Source: Polyangia bacterium (GTDB lineage: Bacteria; Myxococcota_A; Polyangia; Fen-1088). Taken from it: a stretch of 40,006 bases of DNA. The notes under the pieces were generated by a model. It searched no databases. It was given only the letters and a program-made list of their open reading frames with translations, and was not told the origin of the DNA. Below are positions 4,852 through 37,061 of this stretch, piece by piece (positions within the stretch are counted from its first letter, which is position 1; every line of letters begins with the position of its first letter). The position numbers were made by a program, and so were the translations under genes. The DNA is taken from assembly GCA_036268875.1 (NCBI GenBank), contig DATATI010000078.1, forward strand, positions 1-40,006, given 5' to 3'.

Positions 4852-5199
4852 ATGCCAGTCAAACCCGCCTCTTCTAACGCACACCTGCTCATCGACGACG
4901 AACCCGTCGGCGTACGGCGCTTGGCGCGTGTCGTCGCGCTCGAGATCGCTCACGAGCTGCGGCGGCAAGGTGTTATCGTGATCGAACCTGGCATTCGGTC
5001 GCGCCGAAGAAGGGAGATGACGGAATGGCGCGACAGAAACACGCAATTGGATACCGAGTCCACGGACCGTACGAATATAGAGGACGACGGCGAGTCGTCG
5101 TTGTGGATGCAGATGGCCGACGAGACGATCGATACTTTGAATCGGAAGAAGATGCGAAGCAGTTCATCAGGGCGCTCAAGAAGAAGCTCCAAAAGCTGA
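4852..5199 (+). CDS. Small hypothetical ORF overlapping the integrase start
   Basis: 115-residue open frame whose first ~58 residues precede the integrase and look protein-like (LIDDEPVGVRRLARVVALEI, then AHELRRQGVIVIEP). The remainder overlaps the integrase in another frame and is low-complexity Ser/Arg. It could be a small accessory (excisionase-like) gene, a decayed gene, or chance. No ribosome site is obvious. Kept because it occupies the usual position of a small regulator before a tyrosine recombinase. Confidence 0.25.
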   Translation: MPVKPASSNAHLLIDDEPVGVRRLARVVALEIAHELRRQGVIVIEPGIRSRRRREMTEWRDRNTQLDTESTDRTNIEDDGESSLWMQMADETIDTLNRKKMRSSSSGRSRRSSKS

Positions 5200-6179
5200 A
5201 CGCGAAGCCGCTGGAGATGGCGTTGGAGGAATACCGGGTGTACTTGCGCGACGACAAGGGCAACAAGGCGAAGTCGGTGGCACATACCATCGATCAACTT
5301 GGTCGCTTTTTCGGCGGGATGGCAGGAACCGTCGACGAGTTCGAGGACGAGGCGGCATGCGCGGCGCGGTATGACGTACTCCGCCAGCATAAGAAGAAAA
5401 ATGGAGCGCTGCTTTCCGTCGACACCCACAGGAACGCTCTCGCGGAAACGAAAACGTTCCTGAACTGGTGCGGAACCAAGGGCTATCTCAAGACCAACGG
5501 GTTAATGACGGTGAAGGGGACTGGGAAACGCCGGTACGGCAAGCCGCAGCTTTACATCGACGAGGCCCGCGCGTGGTCGGCGACGGCTCTCAACTTGGCT
5601 GCGATGGGAGACGGGGATGAGGTCAAGGAGGGTGCGCTGAAAGCGCTCATGGCACTGCACCTGGGATTGAGGGTGTCGGAGATCCTTCTACGACAGGTGA
5701 GGGACGTGGACGACAGGGGAGGCATGTTGTGGATCCCCGATTCCAAAACGGCGGCTGGACGGCGGCGGGTTGAGGTGCCGGGATTTCTGAGGCCGCTTCT
5801 CTTGCAGATGGCCGAAGGACGCCCCGGTTCAGAGTTCCTCTTCAAATATCGGACGGTCTCCGTGGTGAGGAACTGGGTGAAACGCATCTGCATCAAGGCT
5901 GGAGTTCCGAAGGTATCCGCGCACGCGATGCGCGGCCTCCATGGAACGCTGGCCGTCGATGCCGGTGCAACCTCTCACCTGGTGGCGTCGGCCATGGGGC
6001 ACGAGTCGTTCACGACCACCGCCACCAGCTACGCCAAGAGGGAGTCCGTCGAAGGCGCCAAGCACCGAAAGGCACTCCAAGCCCTCACGCTGCCGTCGGA
6101 CCCGGAGGAAGCGTCTGAAGAATCGAAGTTGCACAACTTATTGCACAACGAATCGATTGTTACCCGCAGAGCGTCGTAG
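5025..6179 (+). CDS. Tyrosine recombinase / site-specific integrase
   Basis: 384 residues, complete. ATG at 5025 with GGGAG 8 bases upstream. The N-terminal ~60 residues form a basic arm-type-binding-like region (HAIGYRVHGPYEYRGRRRVV), followed by a SAM-like core-binding domain (~65-165). The catalytic domain carries the full set: R216 in GLRVSEI, K241 in SKTAAGRR, H300-x-x-R303 in HAMRG, H326 in MGHES, and nucleophile Y336 in SYAKRES. It catalyses integration and excision of the accessory element. Its stop is 39 bases from the 3' end of tRNA-Ala and it reads toward the tRNA, so the attachment site is almost certainly the tRNA 3' end. It ends with two direct repeats (6129-6149) that may be arm sites. 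Confidence 0.92.
   Translation: MARQKHAIGYRVHGPYEYRGRRRVVVVDADGRRDDRYFESEEDAKQFIRALKKKLQKLNAKPLEMALEEYRVYLRDDKGNKAKSVAHTIDQLGRFFGGMAGTVDEFEDEAACAARYDVLRQHKKKNGALLSVDTHRNALAETKTFLNWCGTKGYLKTNGLMTVKGTGKRRYGKPQLYIDEARAWSATALNLAAMGDGDEVKEGALKALMALHLGLRVSEILLRQVRDVDDRGGMLWIPDSKTAAGRRRVEVPGFLRPLLLQMAEGRPGSEFLFKYRTVSVVRNWVKRICIKAGVPKVSAHAMRGLHGTLAVDAGATSHLVASAMGHESFTTTATSYAKRESVEGAKHRKALQALTLPSDPEEASEESKLHNLLHNESIVTRRAS
6129..6149. repeat. Direct repeats TTGCACAAC (x2, 12-bp period)
   Basis: Two identical 9-mers at 6129-6137 and 6141-6149 inside the 3' end of the integrase gene, ~70 bases from the tRNA 3' end. Spacing close to one helical turn and the position beside the attachment site suggest arm-type or excisionase sites; this is inference. 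They encode LHN twice in the protein tail. Confidence 0.5.
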
Positions 6180-6218
6180 TGGCGATCCCGGAAGTAGATA
6201 GAATCCTTAGTCTGTTTG

Positions 6219-6291
6219 TGGAGCTGAACGGGATCGAACCGTCGGCCTCCTGAGTGCGATTCAGGCGCTCTCCCAGCTGAGCTACAGCCCC
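6219..6291 (-). tRNA. tRNA-Ala (anticodon CGC)
   Basis: Folds as a 73-nt cloverleaf on the minus strand: acceptor GGGGCTG/CAGCTCC with one G-U pair, D arm AGCTCAGCTGGGAGAGC, anticodon stem CCTGA/TCAGG with loop ATCGCAC (anticodon CGC, reading GCG, alanine), T arm with GGTTCGATCC, discriminator A. CCA is not encoded (CAA follows). It is the apparent insertion site of the element to its left: the integrase gene ends 39 bases beyond the tRNA 3' end. Confidence 0.95.
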
Positions 6292-27864: not shown

Positions 27865-28227
27865 TCACGAACCGCCGGCGCGTTTCAGCGCCTCGCGCAA
27901 TTCGGGGTGTTCATCCAGATATGCCTTGCGGCTCTCGCGGGTGATCTCGGCGACGATGGTGCTGTCGCGCAGGATCTTCGACTGGCAACCGAGACGCGAG
28001 TTCGCCCGCACGTCGAAGGCCTTGTCCATGATGTCTTCTTCGCGCTCGCTGGCCGGCGACAGATCGGCCAGGCCCTCCTTGACGTAGACGTGGCAAGTTG
28101 AACAGCCGCACACGCCGCCGCAAGCCGAGCCCACCTGCGCGTGGGCTTTGTTCGACGCTTCCAAAATGGTGGTGCCGACCGGCACGTCGATCTCGATTCC
28201 GTCGGGTTCGAATTTCACCTTGGCCAT
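27865..28227 (-). CDS. fdx: [2Fe-2S] ferredoxin, Isc type
   Basis: 120 residues from the ATG at 28227. Adrenodoxin-type fold with cluster ligands C36-x5-C42-x2-C45 (ACGGVCGCSTCHVYV) and C81 (RLGCQSK). The MDKAFDVRANSRLGCQ segment is characteristic of Isc ferredoxins, which supply electrons to IscS/IscU during cluster assembly. It has an extra cysteine (C40), and a C-terminal extension (~20 residues, RKAYLDEHPELREALKRAGG) beyond the usual ~110. Last gene of the isc operon, 4 bases after hscA, converging without gap on glcF. Confidence 0.94.
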   Translation of the reverse strand: MAKVKFEPDGIEIDVPVGTTILEASNKAHAQVGSACGGVCGCSTCHVYVKEGLADLSPASEREEDIMDKAFDVRANSRLGCQSKILRDSTIVAEITRESRKAYLDEHPELREALKRAGGS

Positions 28228-28231
28228 GTCG

Positions 28232-30226
28232 TCATCCGTGCGAATGGCCGGGGCCGCCGTGGCCGTGCGCTTCCATGCGCGCGGCGAGCTCCGTCTTCGG
28301 CGCGGTCTCCGCCACCTTCGCTTCGACAGCGGCGACGGTCTGGCCGCGCAGACCGGCATCAAGCGCCCGGTTCATCCGCCGCGCGGCAAAATCCTTTGAC
28401 GCCCGATCCAAACCTTCGACGGCGGCGCGGATGGCCAGATGGTCGGTGCCGGCCTTGGCCGCGGTCAGAACCTGCAACGCCGCGGCGATCCCCGCCCGAT
28501 CGCCGTCGGTGAGCAACTCGGGCGAGTCGGCCAGGGCCACGCGCGCCGCCGACGCGATCCGTTCGGCCTCGATGCGCTGTTCGGCCAAAAGGCGCGTTTT
28601 CACGTCCTCCTCGGCGTGCTGGAACGAATCCAGCAGCATCCGCTCGACCTCCTCGTCGGTCAGGCCGTAACTCGGTTTGATCTGCACCGCGGTTTCCTTG
28701 CCGGTGGTCTGTTCGCGCGCCGACACCCGCAAAAGACCGTCGGCGTCGACCAGGAAGGTGATCTCCAGTCGCGCCATTCCCGCCGGCATGGGCGGAATCC
28801 CGGTCAGCGAAAACCGGGCCAGCGATCGACACTCGGCGACCATCTCGCGCTCGCCTTGCACGACGTGCAGATCAAAGCCGGTCTGCTTGTCGGCGAACGT
28901 GGTGAAGGTCTGGGTGGCGCCGCAGGGAATGGTGGAATTGCGCGGGATCAATTTCTCCACCACTCCACCCATGGTCTCGAGGCCCAGCGACAGCGGCACC
29001 ACGTCGAGCAGCAACACGTCGTCGGTGGCGCGCCCGCCGGCCAGGATCTCCGCCTGCACCGCCGCGCCCAGCGCCACCACTTGATCGGGATCAATGTCGG
29101 TCAGCGGACGCTGGCCGAATAGCCCCTCGACAAATCGCTGCACCAATGGCATGCGCGTGGCCCCACCGACGAGGATCACCCCCGACAGCGCGGACGGCTG
29201 AACGCCGGCATCCTTCAGCGCGCGCCGCACGGGCCCGGCACAGCGATCGAGCACCGGCTGCACCAGCGCTTCCATTTCATTGCGGCCTAACGACAACGTT
29301 CGTGGCGCTGCGCCCGACAAGGCGATCGAAACCGTGGTGGTGCCCGCCACCGTCAGCTCCTCCTTCGCGGCGCGAGCGGCATCCAGCACCCGGCGCGCCA
29401 ACATTCGATCGCCGCCGGCGTCGTCGGGCGCGCCCAGCGCCCGCAGAAATTTCTCGGCAATGGCCCGATCGAAATCGTCACCGCCGAGCGCCGAGTCACC
29501 GCCGGTGGCCTTCACCTCGAACACGCCGTCTTCCAGCTTGAGGATCGAAATGTCGAAGGTCCCGCCGCCCAGATCAAAAACCGCGAACGTCCCTTCCGCT
29601 TGCTTGTCCAGGCCATAGGCCAGAGCCGCCGCGGTCGGTTCGTTCAACAGGCGCAGCACCTCCAGCCCGGCCAGGCGGCCGGCGTCGCGGGTGGCCTGGC
29701 GCTGGCCGTCGTCGAAATACGCTGGCACGGTGATCACCGCGCCTTCCAGCTCGCCACCGAGCTGGGTCTCCGCCCGCTGGCGCAGCACCTTCAAGATCTC
29801 CGCCGACACTTCGATGGGCGTCACCGCACGTGCGCCACCGGCCACCTGAAAGCGCACCACCGGATCGCCGGCCGCGGCCGGGGCGAACTGATACGAAGTC
29901 AGCTTGCGCGTGGCCTCGCCGTCGTCCGGGCCGCGGCCCATGAACCGCTTGACCGAAGCGATGGTGTCCGCCGGATAAAGCGGCGCCAACCGATCGCGCG
30001 CCTCGCGCCCGGCGACGACGCTGCCGTCGGCGCCGAAGAAGACCACCGACGGAACGATCGCTTCGCCCCTGTCGCCATCCTCGCTCAGACACACCGGCTG
30101 TCCCGCCCGGACCACCGCCACCAGCGAGTTGGTGGTGCCGAGATCGATCCCGATCGCCCGCCCTTTGCACGCCTCTTTCACGCGCGATTCGCCCGGCTCG
30201 CTGATCTGAAACAGCGCCTCAACCAT
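28232..30226 (-). CDS. hscA: Fe-S assembly Hsp70 chaperone HscA
   Basis: 664 residues. Hsp70 ATPase domain: [61 protein letters not shown] and [13 protein letters not shown]. Substrate-binding domain: [11 protein letters not shown] with IPRNSTIPC. HscA uses ATP to help release clusters from IscU, recognising its LPPVK motif, with HscB as J-protein. The length is slightly above E. coli HscA because of an N-terminal ~22-residue lead and a His/Gly-rich tail ([13 protein letters not shown]) that could bind metal; the tail role is inference. The start overlaps hscB by 8 bases. Confidence 0.95.
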
Positions 30227-30875
30227 GGGACGCGCCCTCCGCTTGCGCGGCCACCGATTCGTCGTGCACCGCCACCTCGTCGAGAAAACGCCGGTAATAA
30301 CGGACCGCCACCAGTTCGCCCGACGCGGCCGCCTGCGCTTCCGTCGACGGCAGTGTCGCGCCAGACAGCAACGTCGCCACCCGATTCATCGCCTCCTCAG
30401 CGCGCGCGCGCATGGTCTGGGCCATCGCTTGCACCTTGGCGTCGTCCCCTTCCAGACGCGCCTCGCCCAGCTCCTGCCGCAGCTCCAAGATCTCCACCAG
30501 CAGCGCGGGCGGCGCCGTCTCCGGCTTGCTTTTGCCCGCCGTCAGCAACTGCAGCAAATACTCCGCGCGGCGGACGGGATCTTTCAGGGCCCGCCACGCT
30601 TCGTTCAACTGAACGCTGCGACCCAGCGACGCCCGCCGGGCCCGCGCGTCCGCCCGCGCGAAGCGATCCGGGTGCAGCTTGCGGGTCAGCTCGCGGTAAC
30701 GCTGCTCCAGCACAGCGAGATCAACGTCAAAGCGGCGCTCGACGCCCATCACCGAAAAAAAGTCCGCCCCGGGATCAGCCGGCTGCAACGCCCCGCAGTG
30801 CGCGCACTCCATGCCGCCCCCGGCGGCCTTTTCACAAGACCAGCAAATCACCGCACCCTCTGTTTCGCTAGACAA
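30219..30875 (-). CDS. hscB: Fe-S assembly J-type co-chaperone HscB with zinc-ribbon N-terminus
   Basis: 218 residues. An N-terminal CxxC pair (C11-W-S-C14 and C24-A-H-C27) suggests a zinc ribbon, as in human HSCB and unlike E. coli HscB. The J domain follows with [18 protein letters not shown] at 68-70 (KLHPDRF) and [19 protein letters not shown]. The C-terminal three-helix domain (~125-215) binds IscU. Stimulates HscA ATPase. The start ATG at 30875 lies 31 bases after the iscA stop, and the end overlaps hscA by 8 bases. The extra metal-binding module is the notable feature. Confidence 0.93.
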
Positions 30876-30906: not shown

Positions 30907-31242
30907 CTAGAACTGCACGCTTTCCCCGCAACCGCAGGTGCCCTTGACGTTGGGGTTGGTGAACTTGAACCCGCGCGCCATCATCGACGTGGCGTACTCC
31001 AGCGTCGATCCGTCCAGGAACACAAAGCTCTTCGGGTCAATGAACACCCGCACCTTGCCGTCTTCGAACGACAGGACTTTGTCTTCCGGACGCGGCTCGT
31101 TGTCGGCCCATTCGAAGAGATACGAAAAACCGGTGCAGCCGCCGCCGCGAATGCCGACGCGCAAACCCTTGGGCGCGCTGGCGCGCCCTTCGGCCGCTTT
31201 TCGAATCGCCACGATGGCGCGCTCTGTGACTGCGATGGCCAT
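30907..31242 (-). CDS. iscA: A-type Fe-S carrier IscA
   Basis: 111 residues, HesB/IscA fold. Conserved cysteines C36 (IRGGGCTGFSYLF), C103 and C105 (GTCGCGESVQF). LRVGIRGGGCTGFSY and FKFTNPNVKGTCGCGES are family signatures. IscA accepts or transfers Fe-S clusters or iron between the IscU scaffold and target proteins. Located 13 bases after iscU in the standard isc order. Normal length with no anomalies. Confidence 0.95.
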   Translation of the reverse strand: MAIAVTERAIVAIRKAAEGRASAPKGLRVGIRGGGCTGFSYLFEWADNEPRPEDKVLSFEDGKVRVFIDPKSFVFLDGSTLEYATSMMARGFKFTNPNVKGTCGCGESVQF

Positions 31243-31255
31243 GACCCGGGCTCCG

Positions 31256-31666
31256 TTAGACCGCCGATTCCGTCTTGCCGGCGCGCGCCGCCCGCTTGGC
31301 CTTGTAGTCGGCGATGGCGCCCTTGATGGCGTCCTCCGCCAGCACCGAGCAGTGGATCTTCACCGGCGGTAGATTCAATTCCTCGACGATCTGCGTGTTC
31401 TTGATGGCCATCGCTTGATCGATGGTCATGCCCTTGACCCATTCGGTGGCCAGCGACGACGAGGCGATAGCCGACCCGCAGCCGAAGGTCTTGAACTTGG
31501 CGTCCTCGATGACGCCTTCATCGCTGATCTTGAGCTGCAGCTTCATCACGTCGCCGCACGCCGGCGCGCCGACCAGGCCGGTCCCGACGCTGGGATCGTT
31601 CTTGTCAAAGCTGCCCACGTTGCGGGGGTTCTCGTAATGCTCCAGGACTTTTTCGCTATACGCCAT
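31256..31666 (-). CDS. iscU: Fe-S cluster scaffold IscU
   Basis: 136 residues. Cluster ligands C37 (GAPACGDVMKL), D39, C63 (FGCGSAIASSS), H105 and C106 (IHCSVLAEDAI). The HscA recognition motif LPPVK is intact (99-103), which fits with hscA/hscB in the same operon. Receives persulfide sulfur from IscS and iron to assemble [2Fe-2S]/[4Fe-4S] clusters. 27 bases after iscS. Full length with a basic C-terminal tail (KAKRAARAGKTESAV). Confidence 0.96.
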   Translation of the reverse strand: MAYSEKVLEHYENPRNVGSFDKNDPSVGTGLVGAPACGDVMKLQLKISDEGVIEDAKFKTFGCGSAIASSSLATEWVKGMTIDQAMAIKNTQIVEELNLPPVKIHCSVLAEDAIKGAIADYKAKRAARAGKTESAV

Positions 31667-31693: not shown

Positions 31694-32911
31694 TTAGTGG
31701 GCGGCCCACTGGATGCTCTTCAAATCGATGCCCGCCTGAGCCATCTCGTACAAAGGCGACAGCTCGCGCAGCTTGTTGATCTTGCCGACCACCAGATTGA
31801 TGACGTAGTCGACTTCCTCTTCGGTGTTGAACCGCCCGATGCCGAACCGGATCGAGGTGTGGGCCATCTCTTCTTCGACGCCCAGCGCCCGCAGCACGTA
31901 CGACGGCTCCAGCGACGCCGACGTGCAGGCCGAACCCGACGACACCGCCACGTCCTTCAGCGCCATCAGCATCGCCTCGCCTTCGACGTAGGCAAAACTG
32001 ATGTTCAGGTTTCCGGGCAGCCGGTGCTCCATCGATCCGTTGACGAACGTGTCGCCGACCTGCGACTGGATGCCCTTGCGCAGCCGCTCGCGCAGAGCCA
32101 GCGTGCGCGCTGCCTCGGTGGCCATCTCCAGCCGGCACAGCTCGGCGGCCTTGCCGAAGCCGACGATGCCGGGAACGTTCAAGGTGCCCGACCGCATGCC
32201 GCGCTCGTGGCCGCCACCGTCGATGATCGCCGTGATGCGCACGCGCGGCTTGCGCCGCACGTAAAGCGCGCCGATGCCCTTCGGCCCGTACATCTTGTGC
32301 GCCGACAGCGACGCCAGATCGGCGCGCGCGGCGTTCACGTCGAAAGGAATCTTGCCCACACCCTGGACCGCGTCGATGTGAAAGAGCGCGCCGCGTTCCT
32401 TCACCACCGCGCCGATCTCGTTCACCGGATTGACGGTCCCGATCTCGTTGTTGGCCAGCATGATCGAGACCAGGATGGTCTTGTCGGTCATCGCCGCCTT
32501 GATCGACGCGGGCGTCACCCGACCGTCTTCGGCGACCGGCACGTAGGTGACCTCGAAGCCTTCTTTTTCAAGACGCTTGCAGGTGTCCAGCACGGCCTTG
32601 TGCTCGGTCTGGGCGGTGACGATGTGATTGCCGCGGTCCTTGTGAAACTCGGCGGCGCCTTTGATGGCCAGGTTGTCGGACTCGGTGGCGCCCGACGTCC
32701 AGACGATCTCCTTGCCGACGGCGCCGATCAGCGCGGCCACTTGCTCGCGGGCATCGTCGACAGCCTTCTCGGCTGACCAACCAAAGCTGTGCGATCGGCT
32801 GGCGGCGTTGCCGAAGACCTCGCTGAAGTACGGAAGCATCGTTTCCAGCACGCGCGGGTCAACCGCGGTGGTGGCGTTGTTGTCCATGTAGATGGGAAGT
32901 TTGAGTGCCAT
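31694..32911 (-). CDS. iscS: Cysteine desulfurase IscS
   Basis: 405 residues, class V aminotransferase fold. PLP Lys K206 ([17 protein letters not shown]), H104 ([10 protein letters not shown]), D180 ([11 protein letters not shown]), and a long catalytic loop with C329 ([17 protein letters not shown]), marking a group I IscS/NifS enzyme. Converts cysteine to alanine and delivers persulfide to IscU. ATG at 32911, 33 bases after the MerR-type regulator stop. All catalytic residues present. Confidence 0.96.
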
Positions 32912-32944: not shown

Positions 32945-33433
32945 CTAGCGCCGAGAAATTCCTTCGACCAGCAGCGGCGCCTTGCCGCCGTGGCCATGAA
33001 TGCCGCACGTCCCGCACTCGCCTTGCGAGTGCGAGGGCTCGCACGACCGACAGCTGTCCATGTACGCCAGCGTTTCGTTGAGCTCGCTCACCAGATGGGT
33101 CAGCCGCCCGATGGTTTCTTCGGTTTCACGCAACTTGTCGGCGAAGATCTCCCGGATGCGGTCCATCGCCTTGGGCGCGGTGTCACACTCTTCCCAGCCA
33201 CGCAGGAACGCCTTGATCTCGGTCAAGCTGAAACCCATGTCCTGCAGCTTCTGGATCCACTCGATCCGCGCCAAGGCCCGGCCCGAATAAAGACGGAAGC
33301 CACCCTTCGACCGCACCGCCGGCGTCAGCAGCCCCAACTCCTCATAAAGGTGTAGCGCTCGGACGGATTTGCCCGTCTTCTTCGCCAGTTCTCCCACCTT
33401 TAAGAGGGTCAGATTTTCCGCCGATACTTCCAC
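32945..33433 (-). CDS. MerR-family regulator with Cys-rich tail, in iscR position
   Basis: 162 residues. Winged HTH of MerR type at ~10-80: LKVGELAKKTGKSVRALHLY, EELGLLTPAVRSKGGFRLYS, then RIEWIQKLQDMGFSLTEIKA. A dimerisation coiled coil spans ~90-127. The C-terminus has C128-x2-C131-x8-C140-x2-C143 followed by HGHGG, plus C83 before the coil, resembling the metal or [2Fe-2S] binding tails of SoxR/CueR-type sensors without matching them. It is first in the isc operon, where the Rrf2 repressor IscR usually sits, so it probably senses Fe-S/iron or redox state and controls the operon and itself. A MerR-style operator lies 35 bases upstream (33468-33497). Confidence 0.88.
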   Translation of the reverse strand: MEVSAENLTLLKVGELAKKTGKSVRALHLYEELGLLTPAVRSKGGFRLYSGRALARIEWIQKLQDMGFSLTEIKAFLRGWEECDTAPKAMDRIREIFADKLRETEETIGRLTHLVSELNETLAYMDSCRSCEPSHSQGECGTCGIHGHGGKAPLLVEGISRR

Positions 33434-33467
33434 GCGATTTCTCCGATGTGCCGCTGTTTCAGGTCAA

Positions 33468-33497
33468 ACCCTAACTCTTACGTATACGTAAGGGTAA
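33468..33497 (-). promoter_or_regulatory. MerR-type promoter/operator of the isc operon
   Basis: Minus strand: -35 TTACCC (33492-33497), an 18-base spacer, and -10 TAGGGT (33468-33473). Inside lies the perfect 16-bp palindrome CTTACGTATACGTAAG (33477-33492), almost perfect over 20 bp. A dyad centred in an over-long spacer is the hallmark of MerR-activated promoters. The transcript would start ~30 bases before the regulator ATG. On the plus strand TAATAT (33495-33500) may serve the divergent lipoprotein gene. Confidence 0.7.
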
Positions 33498-33590
33498 TAT
33501 GTTGAGGCAACTCGCCGCTGTCAAGCCGATTTGCAACCCGGCCTGCGTCCAAACATATTTGTCATTGAGGGGTTATTCGCGAGGCCGGTC

Positions 33591-34103
33591 TTGAAGTTGT
33601 CGGTTTTCCGCCTATTGGTCTGGTTGGCGCTCGGCGCTGGCGCGTGCGCCACCGCACCTGCGGTCGGGCGCGGCGGACCAGTCTATGAGATCTCCATCGC
33701 GGCCGTGGATGGCCAGCCAACAGCGGCCCGCGGCCCCGCCGCCTTCCCGGCCATCACCATCCAGGTCGGCACAGAAGTGGCCCGCGTCTGGCTGGCGTAT
33801 CCCTCGCATCATCACGACACGGTCAGTCCGGTGATCATGGAGGGCGACGCCGAAGCGTTGAAAGACGGCATCCTGGTCGAGCGCAGTTGGAACGAAGCGG
33901 TGGTCTATCGGGTGACCGAGGATGATCTCAGCACCGGCGTGGCCATGGTCTATGTCCCGTCCATGCTCCACCCGCCCACCGTGGTCGAGCTGCACTTCGA
34001 TCCCGCGGCCAAGCCCGCGACGGCAACTTCACAACGTCAACACAATCTTTCCAAAGGCCGCTCGGCTCTCCAAGAGGGCGTGGCCCTGCGCCACTTCCGC
34101 TAG
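33591..34103 (+). CDS. Putative lipoprotein, function unknown
   Basis: 170 residues from the TTG at 33591, which has GAGG six bases upstream and begins a proper signal sequence (MKLSVFRLLVWLALGAGAC, Cys19 lipidated); the frame is open from 33531. The mature part is beta-rich (YEISIAAVDGQ, ITIQVGTEVARVWLAYP, MVYVPSMLHPPTVVELHFDP) with a His-rich spot SHHHD. No family recognised. The last ~25 residues (from about 34029) are antisense to the 3' end of the MDR gene, which suggests loss of an earlier stop. Divergent from the MerR/isc operon with the shared regulatory region between, so possibly coregulated. Confidence 0.6.
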   Translation: MKLSVFRLLVWLALGAGACATAPAVGRGGPVYEISIAAVDGQPTAARGPAAFPAITIQVGTEVARVWLAYPSHHHDTVSPVIMEGDAEALKDGILVERSWNEAVVYRVTEDDLSTGVAMVYVPSMLHPPTVVELHFDPAAKPATATSQRQHNLSKGRSALQEGVALRHFR

Positions 34104-35087: not shown

Positions 35088-37061
35088 CTAGGGCGCGCCG
35101 GCGCGGCGACGCCCTCCGCCGCCGGTCGCCACCGCTTCTTTCGTCGCCGTCACCACGTCCGTCACCGCCGCCAGAAACGCGTCCAGGGTGGCGTCGGAGA
35201 TCTCGCCCATGTTCGCCACCTGCACGTAGCGCTCGGCCAGCGCGCCCTTGCAGTGATAGATGACGAAGCCGCGCGCCTTGAGGCCCCAGTACAGCGCATC
35301 GACGGTGAGGAAGTCCGGCAGCCGCAGGGTCGAGATGGTGTGCGATTCGCGGCCGGTGTTGGTCAGCGATCCAAAACCCAGATCGGCGAACACCCGGCGG
35401 ATGCGCAAGGCGCGCTTGCGATAAAGGTCGCGCCGCGCCGGCACGCCCCCTTGCTCGCCGAGCTCGTCCAGCGCCGTCTCCAGGGCGAAGAACGACGACA
35501 CCGCCGGGGTGAACGGTGTCTGGCGCAGCTCGGCCAGATAGCGGCGGTGGCGTTTCATGTCCAAATAGTAAACCCGCGGCGCGATCGCTTCGATGCGCGA
35601 CCACACGGACGGCGCCACACACAGAAACGACACGCCCGACACCGAGTGCAGGCACTTGTTGGCCGACGAATAACAGATGTCGACGCCATCGCGCTGAACG
35701 TCCAGCTCTTCACCACCCAGCGCCGACACCGCGTCGACGATCAACGTGACGCCGCGGTCCCGGCACAAACGCCCGACGGCGCTGACCGGATTCAAAAGGC
35801 CCACCGATGTCTCGTGATGAATCATCGCCACCACGGCGATCTCCCCGTCGCTGTCCAGCGCCCGGCCCACGTCCGCCGGGTCCGGCAACGCGCCCCACGG
35901 ATAGCGCAGCACCACCCGCGGCAGCTGGTGCAGCTTGGCGATTTCTTCCAGCCGATCGCCGAAGGCGCCGTTGCTGATCACCAGAATTTTTTTCCCCACC
36001 GGCACCGCCGACGAGATGGCCATCTCCATTGCCGCCGTGCCTGAGCCGGTGATCAGCAAGGTCTCGTGCGCCGCCGAAGCGCCGAACACGGGCCGCAGTT
36101 TTTCCTGCAGCCGCTCCACCACCGCGGCATAGTCGTCGTCGCGGTGGCAGACATCGCGGTGAACCAGCGCCGCCTTCACCCGCGCCGACGTCATCACCGG
36201 GCCCGGGCTGAACAGCACATGGCCGGGCTGATCCTTTTCGGCCATCAGGCGTTCAATCAACGCCATGGTGTCTTCGGCATTGGATCGCGGCGCGGCCTGC
36301 ATTGTCGGGCGCTCCAGCTCGTCCCCGTACACGCGCAAAAGCCAGTCGGCGTGCAGGCGCATGTCCGTGCTGTCCACGTCCTGCCACAATTTCCCGACCA
36401 CGTCGTGCGCCGTCACCAACCCGCACGCCGCCGCCGCCTGCACGCCTTCCGTCAGCGACGGTTCGGGCAGACCGTCCAGCGCCGCCAGCAGGGTCGGCGA
36501 CATGATGAACAGGCCAGCGCTGACCGCCTGGTACTGGCGCAGCGCCTTGCCGATCTCATCCACTTGGTCGCCCGAAAGCCGCACCTTGGTGGCGTCATCG
36601 ATGTCGAACACGCGCGCCAGATCGCGGTCCACGCAGATCACGGTCCGATCGACGGCATCCGCACCGCTCGCCGGCAAGGCACCCAGCTCGCGCACCAGCG
36701 CCGGCGCGGCGATCTGATCGGCCATCACCAGCAATAGCCGCTGGTCGCCGCCTGCGACGATGAACGGACGCGCCGCCTGCACCGACAGACCGTTGGGTTT
36801 TTCCCAGTGCGGATTCTCAAAAAAGGTGATGCCCGATTTCTGCGCCGGCGAAAGCCGCGTCGAGGCCGCGACGTGCGCGCGCACCGCTTCGCCTCCCCAG
36901 CCGACGACGACGGCGATCGACTGCACGCCCACGCTCGCCAGTAGACCCAGCGTTCGTTCGAGCAGCGTGATTCGCCCCACCATGGCCAGGCAATTGGGCC
37001 CGGCGTGGGTGCCCACCTTCGCGCCCTTGCCGGCGGCCAGAATCAGCGCGCGGGTAATCAT
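35088..37061 (-). CDS. Nucleotidyltransferase-aminotransferase fusion (PntC-AEP transaminase-like)
   Basis: 657 residues, two domains. Residues 1-250 form a nucleotidyltransferase fold: LILAAGKGAKVG, MADQ with metal D114, and WQDVDSTDM with D228/D230. Residues ~278-640 form a class V aminotransferase like 2-aminoethylphosphonate:pyruvate transaminase (PhnW): LFSPGPVMTSARVKAAL, HRDVCHRDDDY, ITGSGTAAMEMAI, IVDAVSALGGEELD, PLP Lys K469 (SSANKCLHSVSGVSF). A PntC-AEPT fusion is known in phosphonate biosynthesis (Treponema denticola), making CMP-2-aminoethylphosphonate for lipids or glycans. Oddity: the usual GxGxR...PK motif reads GKGAKVGTHAGPNCL, without the normal Arg and Lys. No PEP mutase or Ppd gene is nearby, so substrate identity is open. 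Confidence 0.85.
   Translation of the reverse strand: MITRALILAAGKGAKVGTHAGPNCLAMVGRITLLERTLGLLASVGVQSIAVVVGWGGEAVRAHVAASTRLSPAQKSGITFFENPHWEKPNGLSVQAARPFIVAGGDQRLLLVMADQIAAPALVRELGALPASGADAVDRTVICVDRDLARVFDIDDATKVRLSGDQVDEIGKALRQYQAVSAGLFIMSPTLLAALDGLPEPSLTEGVQAAAACGLVTAHDVVGKLWQDVDSTDMRLHADWLLRVYGDELERPTMQAAPRSNAEDTMALIERLMAEKDQPGHVLFSPGPVMTSARVKAALVHRDVCHRDDDYAAVVERLQEKLRPVFGASAAHETLLITGSGTAAMEMAISSAVPVGKKILVISNGAFGDRLEEIAKLHQLPRVVLRYPWGALPDPADVGRALDSDGEIAVVAMIHHETSVGLLNPVSAVGRLCRDRGVTLIVDAVSALGGEELDVQRDGVDICYSSANKCLHSVSGVSFLCVAPSVWSRIEAIAPRVYYLDMKRHRRYLAELRQTPFTPAVSSFFALETALDELGEQGGVPARRDLYRKRALRIRRVFADLGFGSLTNTGRESHTISTLRLPDFLTVDALYWGLKARGFVIYHCKGALAERYVQVANMGEISDATLDAFLAAVTDVVTATKEAVATGGGGRRRAGAP

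Follow-up and report, generated by a model that had tools for sequence, protein, structure and literature searches.

Which protein controls the isc operon in a Polyangia bacterium (Myxococcota) whose genome encodes no protein above the cut-off of the IscR model? Fe-S cluster supply is essential, and the known bacterial feedback regulators of its biogenesis belong to few families (Rrf2 and SufR, with Fur and others helping). The window, i.e. the whole stretch of 40,006 nucleotides that was analysed, carries a complete isc operon. At its head, where IscR or another Rrf2 regulator would stand, is a protein of the MerR family, as the original prediction had it. Most of what is known of the MerR family concerns the activation of responses to metals and stress. 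The operon is read from the minus strand in the order regulator, then iscS-iscU-iscA-hscB-hscA-fdx:

32945-33433, minus strand: MerR-family regulator, 162 aa, GTG start, first gene of the isc operon (Pfam MerR_1, MerR and MerR-DNA-bind)
31694-32911, minus strand: iscS (TIGR02006 and NF010611 above the NCBIfam cut-off)
31256-31666, minus strand: iscU (TIGR01999 above cut-off)
30907-31242, minus strand: iscA-type carrier (TIGR00049 above cut-off)
30219-30875, minus strand: hscB (TIGR00714 above cut-off)
28232-30226, minus strand: hscA (TIGR01991 above cut-off)
27865-28227, minus strand: ISC-type [2Fe-2S] ferredoxin (Pfam Fer2 above gathering score)

The presumed start of the ferredoxin gene is an internal ATG of the listed ORF 27865-28362; the best NCBIfam match of its product is fdx_isc, yet the score is under the fdx_isc cut-off. 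The regulator gene is present in a single copy in the genome. PF13411, PF00376 and PF09278 all exceed the Pfam gathering scores in its product, in which Pfam and NCBIfam detect MerR-family domains only and no Rrf2 domain. The protein falls under the cut-off of every NCBIfam MerR equivalog, including CueR, ZntR, CadR/PbrR, MerR and SoxR (49.5 bits against a cut-off of 116.9 for SoxR; best CueR score 72.3 against 147.4). The original prediction had named an IscR elsewhere that binds this promoter among the findings that would refute it; neither this genome nor any of 269 genomes of the phylum encodes a protein that passes the IscR cut-off. No SUF core protein (SufB/SufD core domain) was found in this genome either, so that isc is the only machinery detected here.

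Other features of the window were recorded in passing. A divergent 190-aa ORF (33531-34103) without Pfam or NCBIfam match flanks the isc promoter, and a 33% match to it sits upstream of merR in locus L004. At the left of the window a tyrosine-recombinase-like ORF (5025-6179) adjoins a tRNA-Ala (cgc) gene (6218-6291), which suggests an integrated element. The 657-aa ORF at 35088-37061 reads as a nucleotidyltransferase fused to a 2-aminoethylphosphonate-type aminotransferase and possibly has a role in phosphonate metabolism.

To follow the gene pair through the phylum we searched 284 genomes for the regulator, which gave 92 places at E 8.4e-24 or better. From this search, a profile scan of genome contigs and fetched regions we gathered 153 distinct homologues with a complete N-terminus. 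The original prediction had proposed a survey of Myxococcota for the gene pair and the palindrome. For the pair, iscS lies directly downstream (at most 200 nt) of 140 of the 147 distinct high-scoring homologues that have at least 350 nt of downstream sequence. Seen from the other side, the regulator stands 1.26-1.82 kb upstream of IscU, on the same strand, in 67 of the 93 phylum genomes with an IscU above cut-off. The remaining 26 genomes include 15 of family f20, six of f19 and one of f23, and three in which IscU is about 1.1 kb from a contig end. An Rrf2-like ORF is found upstream of iscS in nine f20 loci (one was confirmed as Rrf2), and no regulator was seen adjoining iscS in f19 and f23. 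Within one phylum the isc operon is thus paired with a MerR protein, with an Rrf2 protein or with neither.

Four homologues of family f32 with a different neighbourhood form a separate clade in the tree and were left out of the count of isc regulators. The paralogous clade of this family (L109 580-1110, L118 2535-3089, L114, L117, L120 and L121) keeps the cysteine pairs described below and lies away from iscS. Two of its members adjoin a sigma-factor-like gene; several have an overlapping repeat rich in AACGTTAACGT upstream. One record, L195 (CAMAWH010000001.1), is titled Klebsiella pneumoniae, probably through mislabelling, and contains a merR-isc locus typical of the Myxococcota type.

The C-terminal tail of the regulator contains the two cysteine pairs that had been read from the window, C128xxC131 and C140xxC143, i.e. 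a C-x2-C-x8-C-x2-C motif:

33005-33052, minus strand: codons of both cysteine pairs, C128xxC131 and C140xxC143, without variation across 63 aligned homologues

Among 150 distinct high-scoring homologues both pairs are retained in 149 (138 as CxxC-CxxC and 11 with one CxxxC), the sole exception being L079. The original prediction was to be given up if the tail cysteines proved not to be conserved; they are conserved. The His/Gly tail that it also described is present, but its histidines are only partly kept (His146 in 33 and His148 in 37 of the 63 aligned homologues). In the same alignment a P-x-[LM]-V-A-[GA] motif comes after the cysteine/His region. The predicted structure of the regulator (mean pLDDT 88.1, pTM 0.74) places a long dimerisation helix, residues 86-126, immediately before the cysteines. 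MerR-family structures match this model at Z 9-12; the top match is SoxR (Z 12.1), tied with other MerR proteins at most one Z unit away. The four invariant cysteines, after helix 86-126, occupy the same place as the SoxR cluster region. The homologues do not share the Cys with which the dimerisation helix of ZntR-, CadR- and MerR-type metal sensors regularly begins: position 83 is Cys in the window protein and Ser, Ala or Glu in most homologues.

The four invariant cysteines are consistent with an Fe-S cluster that would control DNA binding. Arranged in two CxxC pairs, they could equally well hold Zn or mononuclear Fe, and CxxC...CxxC motifs are common in zinc and rubredoxin-type sites. The same repressor as the one proposed below could then bind a single metal ion in its tail, structural Zn or sensory Fe(II) or Zn, and no Fe-S cluster. 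A nearby His in half of the sequences would agree with such a site. However, 11 homologues have CxxxC in one pair, which is unusual for a zinc knuckle, and the linkage is to isc and suf, not to metal transport. We regard a single-metal tail as possible, though unlikely.

The original prediction had placed the operator in a perfect 16-bp palindrome. This palindrome, CTTACGTATACGTAAG, is present at 33477-33492, but it is not rare in itself: the window holds two perfect palindromes of 16 bp, and shuffled windows hold 0-4. Significance from the palindrome alone was therefore rejected, and what makes the window site significant is its position together with its conservation:

33474-33495, minus strand: candidate operator of 22 bp around the core palindrome 33477-33492; its centre lies near +4 relative to the predicted start
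33519-33524, minus strand: -35 hexamer TTGACA (promoter scan)
33496-33501, minus strand: -10 hexamer CATATT, 17-bp spacer (promoter scan)

In a search that involved no motif training, 122 of 137 upstream regions contained CTTACGTNNACGTAAG with three mismatches or fewer; of 685 shuffled regions 5 did so, and of 137 coding controls none. The weight matrix derived from these matches has the consensus AACYCTYACGTNNACGTRAGGGTT (22-24 bp). With this matrix, which was trained on the same 137 Myxococcota upstream regions that were scored, 134 of the 137 promoter regions contain a site that scores higher than 99% of the maxima from shuffled regions. Two f43 homologues have no operator. The site is also specific to the locus. 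In this genome, searched with up to two mismatches, 33474-33495 is the one full match; two extra weak matches were both at the level of reversed-pattern controls and none is convincing as part of a wider regulon in this genome. The strict pattern occurs in nine of 59 genomes of the class (this one and eight others), at a single place in each.

The position of the operator relative to the promoter differs from what had been predicted from the window. The operator had been placed inside an 18-base spacer; the promoter scan gives instead a single promoter at this site, TTGACA-17-CATATT (33524-33496, 10 of 12 consensus matches), which stands immediately upstream of the palindrome and ends at 33496, one base from the operator. 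The operator centre near +4 assumes a start seven bases after the -10 hexamer, transcription starts being predicted throughout from the hexamers. This promoter is conserved. Of 137 relatives 126 have TTGAC, where shuffled sequences give about 20. Among the 128 relatives with a TTGAC promoter 111 have a spacer of 17, and the -10 element that goes with TTGAC agrees with the consensus at 3.4 of 6 positions on average, compared with 1.9 when positions are chosen arbitrarily. In 120 of the 128 loci with a TTGAC promoter the operator is centred between -20 and +30. In most relatives the operator thus lies at the start of a normal TTGACA-17-TANNNT promoter or just downstream of it, which is the geometry of a repressor. 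Since the operator is conserved, single, placed over the start point, and accompanied by the regulator as first gene, the locus fits an autorepressor that would block RNA polymerase.

Some promoters deviate from this geometry. One of the 128 loci has no operator by this count, and a second operator is found about -52 in L163, L168, L171, L173, L192 and others. These upstream sites, present in a quarter of the loci, may serve looping, cooperative binding or activation. The regulator could then be a dual one, a site at or downstream of the start repressing and a site near -52 activating or forming a repression loop. This would account for the 33 loci that have an operator at -20 to +30 plus a second at -35 to -65, with a spacing of 72-74 bp (about seven helical turns) in 19 of them, and for the seven loci with an upstream operator only, mainly of family f32 (L107, L108, L110, L113 and L115). 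Because of these two groups activation from upstream is possible at some promoters, but 87 of the 128 loci, window included, have an operator between -20 and +30 only, and as a general description of the regulator dual control seems to us improbable.

Classical MerR activators bind within an over-long spacer and, once loaded with ligand, untwist it so that the -35 and -10 elements come into line. This is the mode that the original prediction had chosen; it expected the regulator to activate isc by distorting the DNA, the reverse of the logic of IscR. The protein does have the MerR-family fold, and to our knowledge all characterised metal sensors of the best-scoring subfamilies work as spacer-untwisting activators. 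An 18-base arrangement of two weak hexamers can also be picked in the window: TTACCC and TAGGGT, 18 bases apart, each match the consensus at 3 of 6 only, and they are an arm and a flank of the operator. Among the 134 operator sites, however, the right-hand hexamer position has TAnnnT in at most 11, and the left-hand one matches TTGACA at five or more positions in 1. The promoter conserved upstream has a normal 17-bp spacer with the operator at or after its start, not the over-long spacer (19-20 bp) with the operator inside that this mode implies. An operator within an over-long spacer is a feature of MerR activators and not of all family members. We consider activation by DNA distortion very unlikely here. 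Given the repressor geometry, the regulatory logic is more likely the same as that of IscR and RisR (an Rrf2 repressor of Myxococcus xanthus) than the opposite.

It is most improbable that isc is really controlled by an Rrf2 protein encoded elsewhere in the genome and that the MerR protein has another part. The genome does encode two Rrf2 proteins, one with a cysteine-rich stretch (L002), but both adjoin genes of sulfate uptake or cysteine synthesis. Their scores of 86 and 82 bits compare with an IscR cut-off of 207.55; they also fall far under the SUF-regulator and CymR cut-offs and fit no Rrf2 equivalog, and the isc promoter lacks the RisR motif core GAC-N7-GTC and carries the MerR-linked operator. 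The Rrf2 protein with the cysteine-rich stretch (L002 1447-1914) adjoins a sulfate-binding-protein-like gene and is possibly a regulator of sulfur metabolism.

Homologues outside Myxococcota associate the same protein and operator with another machinery. In two Candidatus Eisenbacteria records (L202 and L217) homologues were found upstream of sufA-like, sufC, sufB and sufD genes. A search of 47 genomes of the Candidatus Eisenbacteria group gave 27 strong homologues, of which 26 precede sufA-like/sufC/sufB genes (gene families confirmed) and keep the cysteine pairs. All 26 carry the same operator (23-36 bits), with a conserved TANNTT just upstream of it; as the matrix was built on Myxococcota only, these operators are an out-of-sample confirmation. 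The remaining homologue (L256) is upstream of iscS and without operator. A quick tree, whose deeper branches are weak, unites the suf-linked proteins in a single group with support (SH-aLRT 98), which agrees with a single switch between the two machineries. By its linkage to isc or suf and its dedicated candidate operator at the promoter, the protein qualifies as a putative regulator of Fe-S biogenesis.

We therefore favour, with reasonable but not high confidence, a MerR-family protein that is the dedicated feedback repressor of Fe-S cluster biogenesis. A homodimer would bind the one palindromic operator overlapping the start point of the merR-isc promoter and, by blocking RNA polymerase, would repress isc and its own gene. 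Sensing would fall to the CxxC-x8-CxxC tail that follows the dimerisation helix; most likely the tail holds an Fe-S cluster provided by the very machinery under the regulator's control. The cluster-loaded regulator would repress; when clusters run short, under iron limitation or oxidative stress, the apo-protein would leave the operator and isc would be derepressed. Observed here are the association of the gene with isc, the invariance of the cysteines, the conservation of the operator and where it sits with respect to a promoter that is itself conserved, and the independent association with suf in the other phylum. From them we infer DNA binding by the regulator, repression, the nature of the cofactor and the choice of the holo- over the apo-protein as the binding form. 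This last choice follows the analogy of RisR, an Rrf2 protein (group IS6) that in its Fe-S-loaded holo-form represses isc and suf by occlusion at a site overlapping the -10 region, and whose repression is relieved by iron limitation or oxidative stress (PMC9973013).

If the model is true, the list of Fe-S regulators gains a family, with a MerR protein established at isc in much of one phylum and at suf in a second, under one shared operator; a novel arrangement of cysteines allows the MerR scaffold to accommodate a cluster; and the balance of cluster supply is explained in bacteria without IscR, here apparently isc-only. The operator makes a prediction that can be tested directly, and the neighbouring class, with the Rrf2 repressor RisR, lends itself to comparison. 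The original prediction named no characterised case, and in the literature covered we likewise found no MerR protein described as an isc or suf regulator; this is weak evidence, many subscription journals lying outside that coverage. As far as found, this would then be an Fe-S biogenesis feedback regulator built from a family unreported in that role. We incline, by a little, to a further proposal: a new class of Fe-S-sensing MerR proteins distinct from SoxR, which would act as ordinary repressors, in Myxococcota on isc and in Candidatus Eisenbacteria on suf, a further family recruited independently to Fe-S homeostasis, with paired operators for looping or dual control in some lineages.

Compared with known systems, the regulator resembles IscR of Escherichia coli (Rrf2) in being encoded by the first gene of the isc operon, in its cysteine-rich sensor, in its operator at the isc promoter and, likely, in feedback repression. 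It differs by its unrelated protein family, its operator and its ligands, four cysteines in two CxxC pairs where IscR has three Cys and one His. RisR comes from the same phylum, is a repressor of Fe-S biogenesis operons, as the MerR protein probably is, and likewise shows that one regulator type can serve isc or suf; unlike the MerR protein it is an Rrf2 protein with three cysteines and a GAC-N7-GTC site, and it controls both machineries at once. SoxR, a [2Fe-2S] member of the MerR family, shares the fold and the cysteine cluster directly after the dimerisation helix, but has C-x2-C-x-C-x5-C spacing, senses redox and is an activator whose operator lies inside a 19-bp spacer. Other proteins of the MerR fold, HspR, GlnR/TnrA, CarA/CarH and CvkR, are plain repressors at ordinary promoters; they differ in having no cysteine cluster and unrelated targets. 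SufR of cyanobacteria and mycobacteria is another case of an unrelated DNA-binding family recruited as an Fe-S-loaded suf repressor, with another helix-turn-helix family and cysteine pattern. Set beside these systems, the MerR protein of the isc operon would be an autorepressor with cysteine ligands, probably loaded with an Fe-S cluster, that has converged with IscR, SufR and RisR.
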